Shown here in pieces: positions 3,226-6,101 of a DNA stretch of 6,101 nucleotides. The position numbers and the translations under genes were made by a program. The DNA comes from an uncultured Bacteroidales bacterium. GTDB taxonomy: Bacteria > Bacteroidota > Bacteroidia > Bacteroidales > Paludibacteraceae. Each line of letters opens with the position of its first letter. Position 1 is the stretch's first letter. The DNA is taken from positions 1 to 6,101 of the forward strand of contig USNU01000097.1 in assembly GCA_900556095.1 (NCBI GenBank). The letters run 5' to 3'. A model generated the notes under the pieces. That model searched no databases. It had not been told where the DNA came from and was given only the letters and a program-made list of their open reading frames with translations.

Positions 3226-4998
3226 TTATAAATTTCGGACAAGTCGAACTGAAAAACCGAAATTTTTATCATAACTATGTTGTGGAGAGGTAGTTCCTAA
3301 AACACTAACAAGGCAATACGATTGTTCTTTACTCTGTGCATTTGCAGCCCAATAAGTAGCATCATTACCTATATTGTAAACTTTTTTTCCGTCACGATAA
3401 CCGTTGTAGGGTAAAAAGATTGCTCCAGATTTTTCTAATTTTTCCCACTCGGAAATAGAGTATATATTTTTGTTAAATCCCATTTCACTAACAAAACTTA
3501 CCCCATGAGGTATTACCCAATCATCTGGAAGTATAATTATTCCATATTCACCATTGATGGTGGCTGCTGCACATAAGTTCTCTGCGTTCTCACGCCCTTC
3601 AAACAAATATGTCCATTCCGAAGCAATGAGTGTACGCCACGTATTAGGCGCATAGCCACTTATATAATTCGTACCCCAGTCAACAAAAGTTTGATAGTTC
3701 TCTATATTTGTACTCGTATCCGTAGGATGATTTCCTGTTCCCCAACCAAATAAATCCACCCAACCATTATACATCGGAGATATATTTTCATTTGCAGTGC
3801 CAATGCAATCATATTGGTGTTCAGCAAATCGCCAAGTATCCGTACTTGCTTGGTATTGCAAATTGCCTCGAGAAAATTTTATTTTTCCACGATCAGTAGT
3901 AAACACTCCAGATAATTCTTTAGATTCCCATTGAGCATACAACGTTATATTTTTCTCTATCACCAAATTCACCCCATCTTTGTACGATATACCTGTTCCG
4001 TTCTCTTTGGTATTCCATTCGTAAAATAAATATTCTTCTTTTGTAAACCCACATAGAGTTAATGACTTAGCCACTCCATAATAGAATGTATCTTTAGGCA
4101 TTGTACCAACACCGCCATTTGCGTCGAAAGTAACCACAAACATAAATTCGGAGTTTGGTTGGTCACCTGTGCCACTTCCGCTGCTACCATTTTTTGCGAT
4201 TTTGATGATAGTGCCGTCGGAGAGGGTGAAATAGACGTAGTTGTCGTCTTGGGTTACGGAGCGGAATATGGTATCACCCGCGTCGCCTTTGTCGCCCTTA
4301 TCTCCTTTATCTCCCTTGTCGCCCTTGTCGCCTTTCGCACCATCGGAACCGTTGGTGCCAGTGGTGCCGTCCTTACCGTCTGCGCCAGTGGCTTTGCCGA
4401 GTTGTGTCCAGTTGGTGCCATCGTAGGAGATGTACCAGTAGTTGTTTTCTATTTTCAGTTGCGGGGTGTTGCCGTTGACGCCGTTGGTGCCATCTGTACC
4501 GTCGGTGCCGTCTTGTCCGTCCTGACCTTTGTCGCCGGTGTCGCCTTTGTCACCCTTGTCGCCTTTCTCGCCGGTAACGCGAATCTTGTTGCCATTGGCG
4601 TCGGTGAGCCAGTTGCCGTCCACCGTCCAATAATAGACGCCGTCGGTGTCCTGCTTGGCACCCACCGTGGGTTTGTAGCCGTCCACACCATCGCGACCGT
4701 CTTTGCCATTGGTACCATTGTAGATGGTGATGGGGTCATGGTGATTGAATGTGATAGTGTAGCCGACAATGGTGTTGCCATTGCGAATCTCGGTAACATT
4801 GGTGATATAGTCGCCGTTATTCTGTGCCTTGATAAGGGTTTCGAGGGCGGCGATGTTGGTGTTCATCTCCTGACAGAGTGTCTCCAAAGTGCTGACACGG
4901 CTATCCATATCGCCCATCACATTCCATATAGAATCTTTGTTGTTGCAACTTGCCAATACCAGCACAAGCACCAACAGGATATATTGTAACTTTTTCAT
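3226..4998 (-). CDS. Mosaic surface lipoprotein: DUF4988-like, collagen-like, Listeria-Bacteroides repeat and C-terminal module
   Basis: The ATG at 4998 is preferred because it gives a compact signal peptide (MKKLQYILLVLVLVLASC); an in-frame TTG lies at 5007. The lipobox LASC puts the lipidated Cys at 18, and Asn-Asn-Lys-Asp follows, compatible with surface export in Bacteroidota. Residues 28-60 form a coiled coil. GYTITF..ITIYNG (79-94) and the units near 105-142, 178-204 and 245-269 are typical of DUF4988 proteins. Gly-X-Y blocks occupy 143-178 (12 triplets) and 205-243 (13 triplets, including five consecutive GDK). A Gly/Ser linker (271-280) leads to one Listeria-Bacteroides repeat (288-357: TFDANGG, FYEWNT, ITLYAQW). 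Residues 364-590 form a domain with FSRGNLQYQASTDTWRFAEHQYD, LFGWGTG, LPDDW and FSVRLV motifs, common in Bacteroidales surface proteins. The likely role is cell-surface binding or adhesion; no catalytic site is recognised. It follows the 5047-5511 gene by 48 bp. Confidence 0.85.
   Translation of the reverse strand: MKKLQYILLVLVLVLASCNNKDSIWNVMGDMDSRVSTLETLCQEMNTNIAALETLIKAQNNGDYITNVTEIRNGNTIVGYTITFNHHDPITIYNGTNGKDGRDGVDGYKPTVGAKQDTDGVYYWTVDGNWLTDANGNKIRVTGEKGDKGDKGDTGDKGQDGQDGTDGTDGTNGVNGNTPQLKIENNYWYISYDGTNWTQLGKATGADGKDGTTGTNGSDGAKGDKGDKGDKGDKGDKGDAGDTIFRSVTQDDNYVYFTLSDGTIIKIAKNGSSGSGTGDQPNSEFMFVVTFDANGGVGTMPKDTFYYGVAKSLTLCGFTKEEYLFYEWNTKENGTGISYKDGVNLVIEKNITLYAQWESKELSGVFTTDRGKIKFSRGNLQYQASTDTWRFAEHQYDCIGTANENISPMYNGWVDLFGWGTGNHPTDTSTNIENYQTFVDWGTNYISGYAPNTWRTLIASEWTYLFEGRENAENLCAAATINGEYGIIILPDDWVIPHGVSFVSEMGFNKNIYSISEWEKLEKSGAIFLPYNGYRDGKKVYNIGNDATYWAANAQSKEQSYCLVSVLGTTSPQHSYDKNFGFSVRLVRNL
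4270..4386 (-). repeat. Collagen-like Gly-X-Y block 2 with 9-bp-type DNA repeats
   Basis: This stretch encodes 13 consecutive Gly-X-Y triplets, including GDK five times in succession. On the plus strand it shows as near-identical 9-base units of the type TTGTCGCCC/TTATCTCCT. Synonymous differences between units indicate partial decay of an array that can lengthen or shorten by slippage without breaking frame. Confidence 0.8.
4465..4572 (-). repeat. Collagen-like Gly-X-Y block 1
   Basis: Twelve Gly-X-Y triplets (GEK GDK GDK GDT GDK GQD GQD GTD GTD GTN GVN GNT) are encoded without interruption. Pro is absent from all triplets; charged Lys/Asp pairs and Thr replace it, as in many bacterial collagen-like proteins. 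It is separated from block 2 by one DUF4988-type beta unit (NYWYISYDGTNWTQLG). Confidence 0.75.
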
Positions 4999-5046
4999 AT
5001 TCTGCAAATTAATGGTTAATTACATGATAGTTTAATGTTCGTTAGA

Positions 5047-5511
5047 TTAGAAGTTGAAGGCGATGCCTGCTCCATTGCCGGTGTAGTTGACATTCAGTGT
5101 CATCCGATGTCCTTTCACGTAGAGCGGAATACCCACCACGGTGAGCGCACCGCCCATCGGCATCAAGATATAGCCTGCCACTTCGGCAGCGTGGGTGGAG
5201 GCAGTGAAGGCTTCTGCCTTGGAGCGATAGTCGTCCAGCGAGAGGTACTGCAGACGGGAGTCGGTATTGGCGGGATTGGTGGTGTAGCCCGCTAACGGAT
5301 TAGGTACAAAATTGGCATACATCAGGCACGCCATACCTGCTGCCAGACAAGGGACGCCTACCGAGAGGGATACCGTACCCGTTGTTTTCAGGGCTTCGCC
5401 CACTACTTGATTTGGATTGCTTGCGCGGTCGGCGTTGACAAGCGCAACAGATTGAGCACTAAGGCTTGCAGAAAGAGCCGCAAGCAGAAGCATAATGAGT
5501 GTTTTTCTCAT
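5047..5511 (-). CDS. Exported small hypothetical protein
   Basis: The 154-residue product starts with a clear type I signal peptide (MRKTLIMLLLAALSASLSAQ, cleavage predicted after SAQ or nearby). Two further hydrophobic stretches follow: GTVSLSVGVPCLAAGMACLMYANF (45-68), and AAEVAGYILMPMGGALTVVGIPLYV (108-132). The C-terminus MTLNVNYTGNGAGIAFNF ends in Phe and looks like an amphipathic beta strand. I do not recognise a named family; small proteins with a paired Gly-rich 'LTVVGIPL' helix are seen in Bacteroidales, but their function is unknown to me. The start at 5511 is preceded on the minus strand by an A-rich leader (ACAAACAAAAATTATTACACA) as usual where no Shine-Dalgarno is used. It lies 48 bp upstream of the lipoprotein gene and is probably co-transcribed with it, so an accessory envelope role is possible. 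Confidence 0.78.
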   Translation of the reverse strand: MRKTLIMLLLAALSASLSAQSVALVNADRASNPNQVVGEALKTTGTVSLSVGVPCLAAGMACLMYANFVPNPLAGYTTNPANTDSRLQYLSLDDYRSKAEAFTASTHAAEVAGYILMPMGGALTVVGIPLYVKGHRMTLNVNYTGNGAGIAFNF

Positions 5512-5530
5512 TGTGTAATAATTTTTGTTT

Positions 5531-5551
5531 GTCTGTCGGCTCCAAACAGAC
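5531..5551 (-). other. Hairpin in the leader of the 5511 gene
   Basis: GTCTGT (5531-5536) pairs perfectly with ACAGAC (5546-5551) around a 9-base loop, 20 bases upstream of the start codon at 5511. It could influence translation or mRNA stability. A weak promoter-like pair (TTTTG, then 18 bases, then TATCGTCTG on the minus strand) overlaps its upstream side but matches the Bacteroidota consensus poorly. Confidence 0.3.
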
Positions 5552-5573
5552 GATATACGTAAATTGGATTATA

Positions 5574-5665
5574 CAAAAAGAGCGTGGAACCCTTATTTTT
5601 ACTTATTCTCCTTTCTGAGGTTCCTGCAAGACCCACGTACAAGAATAAGCAACTAACGTCCACGC
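5574..5665 (-). ncRNA. Candidate structured RNA, left copy, with terminator-like 3' end
   Basis: Minus-strand helices: a closing helix GCGTGGA/TCCACGC (5659-5665 with 5582-5588, 7 bp), then an internal loop, then an upper helix CTTATTCT/AGAATAAG (5642-5649 with 5602-5609, 8 bp), then an apical part with the TTGCAGGA and CAGAAAG blocks. The 3' strand of the closing helix is followed directly by TCTTTTTG, like an intrinsic terminator. A second helix GGAACC/GGTTCC (5619-5624 with 5586-5591) uses the same 3' bases, so two exclusive folds exist. The family is not one I can name. A transcript could start in the central palindrome or at the promoter near 5900. It might also serve as a leader or attenuator for the 5511 operon. 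Pairing symmetry supports RNA but does not prove it. Confidence 0.5.
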
Positions 5666-5679
5666 CGAATATGTATATC

Positions 5680-5709
5680 CGTTTTGTGTACTCGGAAGTA
5701 CACAAAACG
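5680..5709. repeat. 13-bp perfect palindrome at the centre of the inverted repeat
   Basis: CGTTTTGTGTACT (5680-5692) is perfectly complementary to AGTACACAAAACG (5697-5709), with only CGGA between. It is the axis of the larger repeat. Its perfect pairing contrasts with the diverged outer arms, so it is either conserved by selection or homogenised. On each strand it is preceded by a similar GTAT(A/T)TC...CG sequence. It may be an operator, a shared promoter core or an RNA hairpin. Confidence 0.75.
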
Positions 5710-5728
5710 AGAAATACACGCCAATGGA

Positions 5729-5815
5729 CGTTTATTGCACTCTTGTTTCGGGTACTTGAAATTTTGCAGGATTCCAGAAAGCCAAAACAAGCGCTAATAA
5801 ACGCCTTTTTATTTA
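5729..5815 (+). ncRNA. Candidate structured RNA, right copy, homologous to the left copy
   Basis: Plus-strand helices: a closing helix CGTTTATT/AATAAACG (5729-5736 with 5796-5803), extended by GC/GC (5737-5738 with 5793-5794) past a bulged T5795, and an upper helix CTTGTTT/AAACAAG (5742-5748 with 5785-5791). The apex holds the shared TTGCAGGA and CCAGAAAG blocks. CCTTTTTATTT follows the closing helix, as in the left copy. Relative to the left copy both helices have changed sequence on both sides while keeping pairs. If transcription instead comes only from the minus-strand promoter at 5906-5936, this arm would be an antisense-oriented domain of one long RNA and its T-tract would have no terminator role. 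Confidence 0.45.
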
Positions 5816-5866
5816 TATGTCTGCCAACGGCTGCATTGCAACGGTTTGTAGGTCAGGCATATACAT
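5813..5866 (-). CDS. Possible 17-residue leader peptide ORF
   Basis: ATG at 5866 opens MYMPDLQTVAMQPLADI and stops with TAA at 5813, at the outer T-tract of the inverted repeat. It begins about 33 bases after the transcription start expected from the minus-strand promoter at 5906-5936. No run of a single regulatory amino acid is seen, and the start sits in a small GGCA/TGCC hairpin. It could be chance. Confidence 0.18.
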   Translation of the reverse strand: MYMPDLQTVAMQPLADI

Positions 5867-5905
5867 TGCCCGCCGCTCCCTTACCACGCAAGACGTTAGC
5901 AACCG

Positions 5906-5936
5906 CAAAAGTACAACAAATGTTTGAATTATGCAA
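5906..5936 (-). promoter_or_regulatory. Bacteroidota-type promoter directed leftward
   Basis: On the minus strand a TTG (plus CAA, 5934-5936) is followed after exactly 20 bases by TACTTTTG (plus CAAAAGTA, 5906-5913), a full match to the TAnnTTTG -7 element with a correct -33 spacing. Transcription would begin near 5899 and run left through the inverted repeat toward the 5511-3226 operon. It may drive a long RNA ending at the T-tract near 5574, or read through into the operon. Confidence 0.62.
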
Positions 5937-5981
5937 GTGAATATGAAAAATTATTATATTGACAATGCGATGTCTTCTATG

Positions 5982-6037
5982 CGGCATATAGTGGCGCGTG
6001 CTGCGCACAAAGCGGTGCTTTGCGCCACTATATGCCG
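5982..6037. repeat. T-shaped palindrome able to form a fully paired three-way junction
   Basis: CGGCATATAGTGGCGC (5982-5997) is perfectly complementary to 6022-6037. The 24 bases between form two adjoining mini-hairpins with no spare base: GTGC-TGC-GCAC (5998-6008), and AAAGC-GGT-GCTTT (6009-6021). An alternative outer pairing, ATGCGG (5979-5984) with CCGCAT (6040-6045), competes with the base of the stem. No T-run follows on either strand, so it is not an intrinsic terminator. The shape recalls REP-type elements, transposon-end hairpins and hairpin replication origins; which one applies cannot be told here. Confidence 0.8.
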
Positions 6038-6065: not shown

Positions 6066-6098
6066 TCGTATATCTTTCGTATATCTTTCGTATATGTT
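6066..6098. repeat. Three 11-bp tandem repeats at the window edge
   Basis: TCGTATATCTT occurs at 6066-6076 and 6077-6087, then as TCGTATATGTT at 6088-6098. The 11-base period is close to one helical turn, so a protein bound to each copy would sit on one face of the DNA. Each copy also contains TATCTTTC, close to a TAnnTTTG box. The array may continue to the right. Confidence 0.75.
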
Positions 6099-6101
6099 CC
6101 T

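Follow-up and report, generated by a model that had tools for sequence, protein, structure and literature searches.

The window analysed here, a stretch of 6,101 nt at the start of contig USNU01000097.1 from an uncultured Paludibacteraceae bacterium (GCA_900556095.1), carries an intergenic inverted repeat around 5574..5816, and the question it raises is what its two arms are to each other and to the gene beside them. The original prediction took them for a pair of diverged homologous RNA-like folds in inverted orientation, each formed on its outward strand and each followed by a T-tract right after its closing helix. All words on which this was founded are in place: GCGTGGA and TCCACGC (the latter at 5588-5582), GCGTTTATT (5804-5796) and AATAAACG (5736-5729), CTTATTCT and AGAATAAG, CTTGTTTTGG and CCCGAAACAAG, the apex words TTGCAGGA and CAGAAAG (remaining coordinates in Table 1), and a T-tract.

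Read along the minus strand, however, the right arm presents CTTTCTG, TCCTGCAA and GTAC and the left arm GTAC, TTGCAGGA and CAGAAAG, which are reverse complements in pairing order (helices K1, K2 and K3). The two arms complement one another as halves of a single minus-strand element, and because they are complementary at K1-K3 on a single strand they look like similar folds on opposite outward strands. Folding on the outward strands was borne out in part. The left arm exceeds its shuffles with z = −4.4 on the minus (outward) strand and −2.5 on the plus strand; the right arm also does so on its outward plus strand (z = −1.9) but is stronger on the minus, inward strand (z = −3.9). Likewise, a T-tract does follow the closing helix of the left arm, whereas the plus-strand T-tract of the right arm is an A-tract in the minus-strand reading.

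In minus-strand order the locus consists of a promoter-like motif, a GACATA box, hairpin B (the right arm), a middle hairpin, hairpin A (the left arm), a U-tract, the last hairpin P6 and a start codon (Table 1). With the promoter-like motif, the last hairpin and the start codon it is longer than originally described. From the predicted promoter, an RNA start is expected near 5900. The middle hairpin is variable; in the window copy its arms form a perfect palindrome at 5709-5680.

Table 1. Predicted and observed features of the element and its surroundings in the window
Feature	Position	Strand	Remarks
Predicted Bacteroides-type promoter	5906..5936	-	TTG near −33 (5936-5934), TACTTTTG at −7 (5913-5906)
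GACATA box, conserved, immediately 5′ of the element	5816..5821	-	[GA]ACATA at most 30 nt upstream in 84/123 copies
Core element	5573..5806	-	Covariance model R1, 204.1 bits; the window is among the 35 source sequences of R1
Hairpin B	5742..5791	-	Stem P2, CTTGTTTTGG (5791-5782) / CCCGAAACAAG (5752-5742)
Hairpin B, apical stem	5775-5758	-	GGAAT..ATTTC
Hairpin A	5602..5649	-	Stem P4, CTTATTCT (5649-5642) / AGAATAAG (5609-5602)
Hairpin A, apical stem	5634-5618	-	Within GGGTCTTGCAGGAACCT
K1, 5′ half CTTTCTG	5775..5781	-	Partner CAGAAAG, 5617-5611
K1, 3′ half CAGAAAG	5611..5617	-	Covariation in A2 and A3
K2, 5′ half TCCTGCAA	5764..5771	-	Predicted loop-loop (kissing) contact with TTGCAGGA, 5629-5622
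K2, 3′ half TTGCAGGA	5622..5629	-	Covariation in A2 and A3
K3, 5′ half TTCA.GTAC	5752..5760	-	Partner GTAC.TGGG, 5640-5632; duplex of the window's own arms
K3, 3′ half GTAC.TGGG	5632..5640	-	Window arm duplex and A3 covariation
P3	5655..5732	-	AACGTCC (5732-5726) / GGACGTT (5661-5655), around the variable middle hairpin
3′ strand TCCACGC and U-tract	5574..5588	-	Partner GCGTGGA, 5665-5659 (closing helix), or 5′ AAAGGCG
K4, 5′ half GGTTCC	5586..5591	-	Can pair with GGAGCC in the P6 loop
P6, last hairpin GTCTGTTTGGAGCCGACAGAC	5531..5551	-	K4 partner in the loop; start codon 19 nt further on
Downstream gene, 154 aa	5047..5511	-	Start codon 5511; signal-peptide-like start by eye; no Pfam family

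Several other features of the window deserve mention in their own right. A perfect 16-nt inverted repeat, CGGCATATAGTGGCGC (5982-5997 / 6022-6037, 24-nt spacer), adjoins the predicted promoter on its upstream side, and short direct repeats of TATATCTTTCG were seen by eye at about 6069-6100, near the end of the window. The second gene after the element encodes a 593-aa protein (3226-5007, minus strand) with DUF4988, collagen-like triplets and a List_Bact repeat; 2/115 proteins directly downstream of other copies match DUF4988 too (by eye those of loci L200 and L201). Rfam places a tRNA gene at 1445-1519, with an OmpA-family gene on one side and a metallophosphoesterase gene on the other.

That the sequence recurs between genes of Bacteroidales had been put forward as an impression, and the genome searches support it. 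BLAST with the element returned relatives in Paludibacteraceae and Bacteroidales MAGs, although most matches of one search covered the promoter region only. With the copy of genome G002 as query, at least 36/150 family genomes (G002 included) gave a match. The covariance model R1, built from 35 copies, matched at least 91/295 genomes of the order sample at E ≤ 0.01, so that the element is not unique to this genome, and at least 16/296 genomes of the phylum sample at E ≤ 1e-4. At most five candidates per genome were scored in the family search and at most seven in the order and phylum searches, so copies and genomes are undercounted. The 16 phylum genomes include G002 and G211, the latter matched in the order sample as well; 13 of the 15 besides G002 gave one match, with seven candidates scored per genome. 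The 15 phylum loci, one per genome, appear by eye to be compact versions (153-180 nt) made up of the same parts. The K2 word CTGG(T/C)A is common to nine of these compact copies (L322-L324, L326-L331), and a TAnnTTTG core lies 22-29 nt upstream of eight of them; in this they differ from the multicopy forms, which vary more.

Scoring 150 candidates in each of 12 genomes, with part of the matches inspected, gave matches in 4-19 places in 11 of them; the 20 matches in G147 correspond to 19 places, since one match reads the opposite strand of another. On one short contig, locus L310, two copies (1253-1419 and 2378-2544) lie about 960 nt apart. As a viral control, 80 viral-contig loci (739,215 bases) gave a best R1 score of 12.4 bits (E = 0.31). 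These loci were the 80 listed out of at least 120 stretches with short-word matches in viral contigs, and since none scores above 12.4 bits we treated the matches as chance. Among plasmids only short matches at E 0.8 were obtained, and among phages no match.

Covariation was assessed with a G-test and average-product correction, against a null in which inferred substitutions were placed randomly on a FastTree tree (60 replicates). Alignment A2 holds 35 copies aligned by sequence only; from the 40 loci it was drawn from, L193, L210, L212, L220, L225 and L226 were excluded as near-duplicate, duplicate or incomplete by end pattern. Alignment A3 holds 101 copies aligned with R1, leaving out four antisense or partial matches, after a scan given 100 sources (the window, 10 of the 40 A2 loci, 29 of the 30 order-search loci and all 60 further loci). 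A set of 123 copies, from which L221 (the G002:C27 copy) and the second copy in L310 were also excluded, served for counts over the whole family. A3 favours pairs of K1-K3, P3 and the outer helix described below, because the model that aligned it contains them; A2 and the arm-swap comparison are free of that bias.

Significant covariation was found in both alignments. In A2, nine column pairs reached E = 0.000, all within K1-K3, and a tenth (columns 250 and 254, E = 0.033) belongs to none of the helices proposed here. In A3, 12 pairs had E = 0.000, exceeding all 60 null alignments, and one had E = 0.017, distributed as seven in K1, four in K2 and two in K3. Among ungapped copies, ten of those 12 are paired in at least 99%, one in 98% and one in 92%. 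All seven K1 pairs lie above every null alignment and are paired in 99-101 of 101 copies; so do the four K2 pairs, which are paired in 101/101 copies (99/99 at a position with two gaps) and use up to five pair types. K3 contributes one pair above every null (86/93 paired) and the one at E = 0.017 (77/92 paired). P2, P3, P4 and K4 had no significant pair in A3 against the tree-based null: the best P3 pair stands at E = 0.28, the outer helix of a single long hairpin at 1.07 and P4 at 11.6 (next 16.5), and P2 is absent from the 70 best-covarying pairs.

An alignment-free comparison agrees on the main point. Duplexes between the two arms of the same copy average −36.9 kcal/mol against −19.6 kcal/mol with the arms of other copies, and own arms beat all 60 swaps in 104/123 copies. 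Together with the tree-based covariation this supports the proposal that selection acts on nucleic-acid structure here, and a conserved element with selected complementarity between its arms is close to certain. Copy counts throughout are not independent, because the copies share ancestry.

The same data speak against two homologous units, since the strongest covariation runs between the arms and the apex words are same-strand pairing partners. The fold made of K1-K3, P3 and the outer helix pairs in 96.4% of A2 cells with 208 changes on both sides against 57.7 in shuffles. A model of two independent arms pairs well (98.5% of cells) but shows only 20 such changes, against 6.0 in shuffles, and was rejected. 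By cells, pairing in A2 amounts to 99.4% for P2, 97.7% for P4, 96.7% for P3 (with both-side changes at 4/7 pairs) and 99.6% for GCGTGGA/TCCACGC. Conservation of structure is thus supported by covariation at K1-K3 and by pairing frequency at the other helices. Wobble cells number 279 G-U against 11 A-C over nine A2 helices, 176 against 36 in K1-K3 and P3 of A3, and 3 against 1 in K1 and K2 alone; the excess fits RNA or single-stranded DNA of the minus strand and is partly built in, because helices were chosen with G-U counted as a pair.

How the complementary segments are arranged in space is a matter of two competing folds. P2 averages −9.95 kcal/mol with its own partner and −7.52 with swapped ones, and P4 −12.04 and −8.70, whereas the outer helix of a single long hairpin has the smallest gain (−7.10 own, −5.92 swapped). 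We prefer two hairpins docked by K1, K2 and K3 because P2 and P4 gain more from their own partners than the outer helix does. One simple long hairpin is the less preferred alternative, backed by pseudoknot-free folding of the window, which returns exactly that, and by the outer helix outscoring P4 in A3, whose aligning model contains the outer helix. The comparison across copies also speaks for it, as in 122/123 folding as a whole is favoured over the best split into two domains. The docking of P2 and P4 is therefore an interpretation, given that the outer helix outscores P4 in A3 and that P2 and P4 yield no significant pair, and it is in this sense that we infer a docked two-hairpin geometry. 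A further closing helix between GACATA and a downstream UAUGUC is not claimed, because the downstream word is weak (25/123 copies against 9.2 expected).

Promoter cores and genes keep to fixed sides of the element. The upstream GACATA box is far more frequent than the 3.5 copies expected by shuffling. Among copies with enough flank (119 for promoters, 117 for downstream and 112 for upstream ORFs), the TAnnTTTG core, in keeping with the Bacteroides promoter consensus as it is set out in PMC7366714, occurs within 250 nt upstream in 104/119, against 33 on the antisense strand and 21 in shuffles, and the longer −33/−7 promoter pattern in 68, against 13 and 3.3. An ORF of at least 100 aa on the same strand starts at most 350 nt downstream in 102/117 copies; a divergent ORF starts within 350 nt upstream in 26/112 and a convergent one ends at most 350 nt downstream in 32/117. 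Starts fall 35-75 nt from the element in 57/102 cases downstream and in 1/26 on the other side. With an ORF downstream and a promoter core upstream, the element occupies the place of a predicted 5′ leader.

The genes that follow are without a shared function. Of the 115 downstream proteins scanned (cut to their first 400 residues), matches were obtained to 44 Pfam and 54 NCBIfam families; among the 25 listed of each are BspA-type LRR proteins (8), Cys-rich radical-SAM target peptides (6), the Lcl C-terminal domain (4), CsgG (3), DUF4988 (2), BACON (2), a SusD-like protein, RmuC, UbiA and a DNA methylase. From the families and the N-termini, many of these products look secreted or surface-bound. 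Two relatives of the 154-aa protein itself carry the names of Paludibacteraceae and Paludibacter MAGs. In 5/6 related loci, identified with this protein, an element lies upstream of its orthologue on the same strand (E 1.3e-6 or better); in L121 another gene stands between the two, and L123 has no element. This positional evidence strongly favours a minus-strand leader that acts in cis.

The 3′ end varies between copies. Many have, past the U-tract, a hairpin with a loop that could pair with the element's 3′ strand, the putative contact K4. K4 runs of at least 6 bp occur in 76/119 copies (64%), against 27% with swapped partners and 17% when shuffled, a count in which some runs differ from the proposed contact (AAGGTT/AACTTT in five copies). 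By energy, K4 is not copy-specific: own partners average −11.35 kcal/mol and swapped ones −9.13, and only 21/123 copies beat at least 57 of 60 swaps. A hairpin and U-tract of intrinsic-terminator form are present, and in many copies the complementary hairpin lies beyond that U-tract. A terminator-like end was flagged in 11/123 copies; nine of them were flagged in the arm-swap comparison as well and have K4 runs of at most 4 or 5 bp, compared with 6 bp in the other two. P3 overlaps in bases with the GCGTGGA/TCCACGC and GCGTTTA/TAAACGT pairings, all of them paired in over 96% of A2 cells. Because they share bases, P3 and GCGTGGA/TCCACGC compete.

These observations leave several functional readings to be weighed. 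We think it unlikely that the element, as a passive structural leader, shields the mRNA at its 5′ end or fixes translation at a constant rate while sensing no signal. The diversity of the downstream genes is compatible with such a role, and so is the strongest constraint falling on complementarity rather than on letters, as expected if only shape matters; yet mutually exclusive conserved pairings and a 3′ platform that varies between a terminator-like end and K4/P6 look like switching. Switching of one kind is what a transcription attenuator would do, in which transcripts would stop at the U-tract behind P1, or at a local terminator, except when an alternative pairing is adopted, with a signal shifting the balance between P3 and P1. 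Two conserved pairings, GCGTGGA/TCCACGC before the U-tract and P3, do exclude each other through their shared bases, and the copies with a terminator-like end are suited to it. However, a terminated RNA would not contain the K4 hairpin that many copies have beyond the U-tract, and the U-tract can alternatively pair with the A-tract before the element. Attenuation seems to us unlikely.

Readings that detach the element from the gene fare worse. A promoter-like motif of its own and a U-tract would suit a stand-alone small RNA lying upstream of genes by happenstance, which is improbable in view of the clustering of start codons 35-75 nt downstream, the presence of the element upstream of orthologues in most related loci, and K4, which connects many copies to a hairpin beside the start codon. 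A DNA-level repeat spread by mobility (a MITE, a REP or a recombination hairpin such as an integron attC site) would likewise be multicopy, palindromic and found before varied genes; attC sites have conserved R core sites and occur in integrase-linked arrays. The fixed sides of promoter and gene, the excess of G-U over A-C in the helices (partly built in) and, again, the orthologous loci, one of them with an intervening gene, make this very improbable. Finally, the region contains a 118-aa ORF on the plus strand (5584-5940) and a 65-aa ORF on the minus strand (5508-5705), and the former is matched by 14 database proteins. The suspicion that the repeat is sometimes called as spurious hypothetical proteins is supported in that unnamed predicted proteins run across it: all 14 match the 118-aa ORF across the element at E 6.9e-4 or better. 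By eye, every one of them crosses the right arm and three (P0082, P0087 and P0090) cross both arms, with the right-arm part in different frames. Neither ORF matches Pfam and the covariation pattern is typical of paired nucleic acid, which makes a protein gene here next to inconceivable.

Probably, then, we are dealing with a multicopy family with covarying complementary segments that acts as a minus-strand 5′ leader RNA controlling the 154-aa gene in cis. Our best reading makes this a new family of 5′ leader RNAs that act in cis and adopt an unusual fold of two docked hairpins; for it we infer transcription, docking, switching, a signal and the mode of control. Transcription of the minus strand would proceed from the promoter-like motif through the element into the 154-aa gene. 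Hairpins B and A would then lie alongside each other in a docked form: P2, P4, K1 and K3 would come together in a four-way junction, and K2 would join the hairpin tips through a kissing contact. The 3′ strand could pair either in P1 or in K4 and so would couple the docked fold to P6 beside the start codon. Formation of the docked fold would govern translation of the gene or, in the minority that have a local terminator, may govern transcriptional read-through.

More tentatively, we can speculate that this is a new class of leader RNA, large and signal-sensing, a natural double-crossover of two docked hairpins that controls much of the variable surface and accessory genes of Bacteroidales, at up to 19 sites per genome, and that reaches further into Bacteroidota. 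About a third of the sampled genomes of the order carry the element before varied genes. Should it prove to be a regulator, its regulon would be legible directly from genome sequence, and a signal search would have a concrete RNA to start from.

As to known families, the original prediction did not recognise one, and Rfam 15 gave no match overlapping the element in 44 sources (the window at E ≤ 5, 28 loci at E ≤ 1 and 15 loci at E ≤ 10); nor was a description of it found in the open-licence papers searched. The table of Weinberg et al. 2010 (PMC2864571) includes Bacteroidetes motifs such as Bacteroidales-1, Bacteroides-1, Flavo-1, 6S-flavo and Bacteroid-trp, which are candidate structured RNAs of the same phylum, as the element is; no Rfam model of these motifs matched over it. 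That comparison covers the motifs with an accession, and in the table of PMC2864571 Bacteroides-2 and GUCCY-hairpin appear without one. The cis-regulatory DUF805b RNA (RF02914), a 35-nt motif, separates element and gene in L192, where it scores 44.8 bits, and in L221 it follows the element with a match below the gathering score (29.7 of 35.6 bits); it has no overlap with the element and is a separate module. In both loci (L192:3289-3323 and L221:2915-2948) it comes right after terminator-type copies, placing two cis-regulatory modules in series.

With orphan riboswitch candidates and loop-loop riboswitches, of which the cobalamin riboswitch is an example, the element has in common a predicted structured 5′ leader, conserved pairing with compensatory change, a predicted loop-loop contact and a place beside a terminator or start codon. 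It differs from them in lacking a known ligand and a shared function of the downstream genes, in its three separate inter-hairpin segments with variable letters and in occupying up to 19 places in a genome. A fold in which three separate variable helices connect two hairpins would be an unusual one among natural RNAs. There is a likeness to the double-crossover and paranemic motifs of RNA nanotechnology, in which side-by-side helices exchange strands at paired internal loops, and with which the element would share that layout and a kissing contact. Those motifs are designed, whereas the element is natural and its docked form a predicted counterpart.
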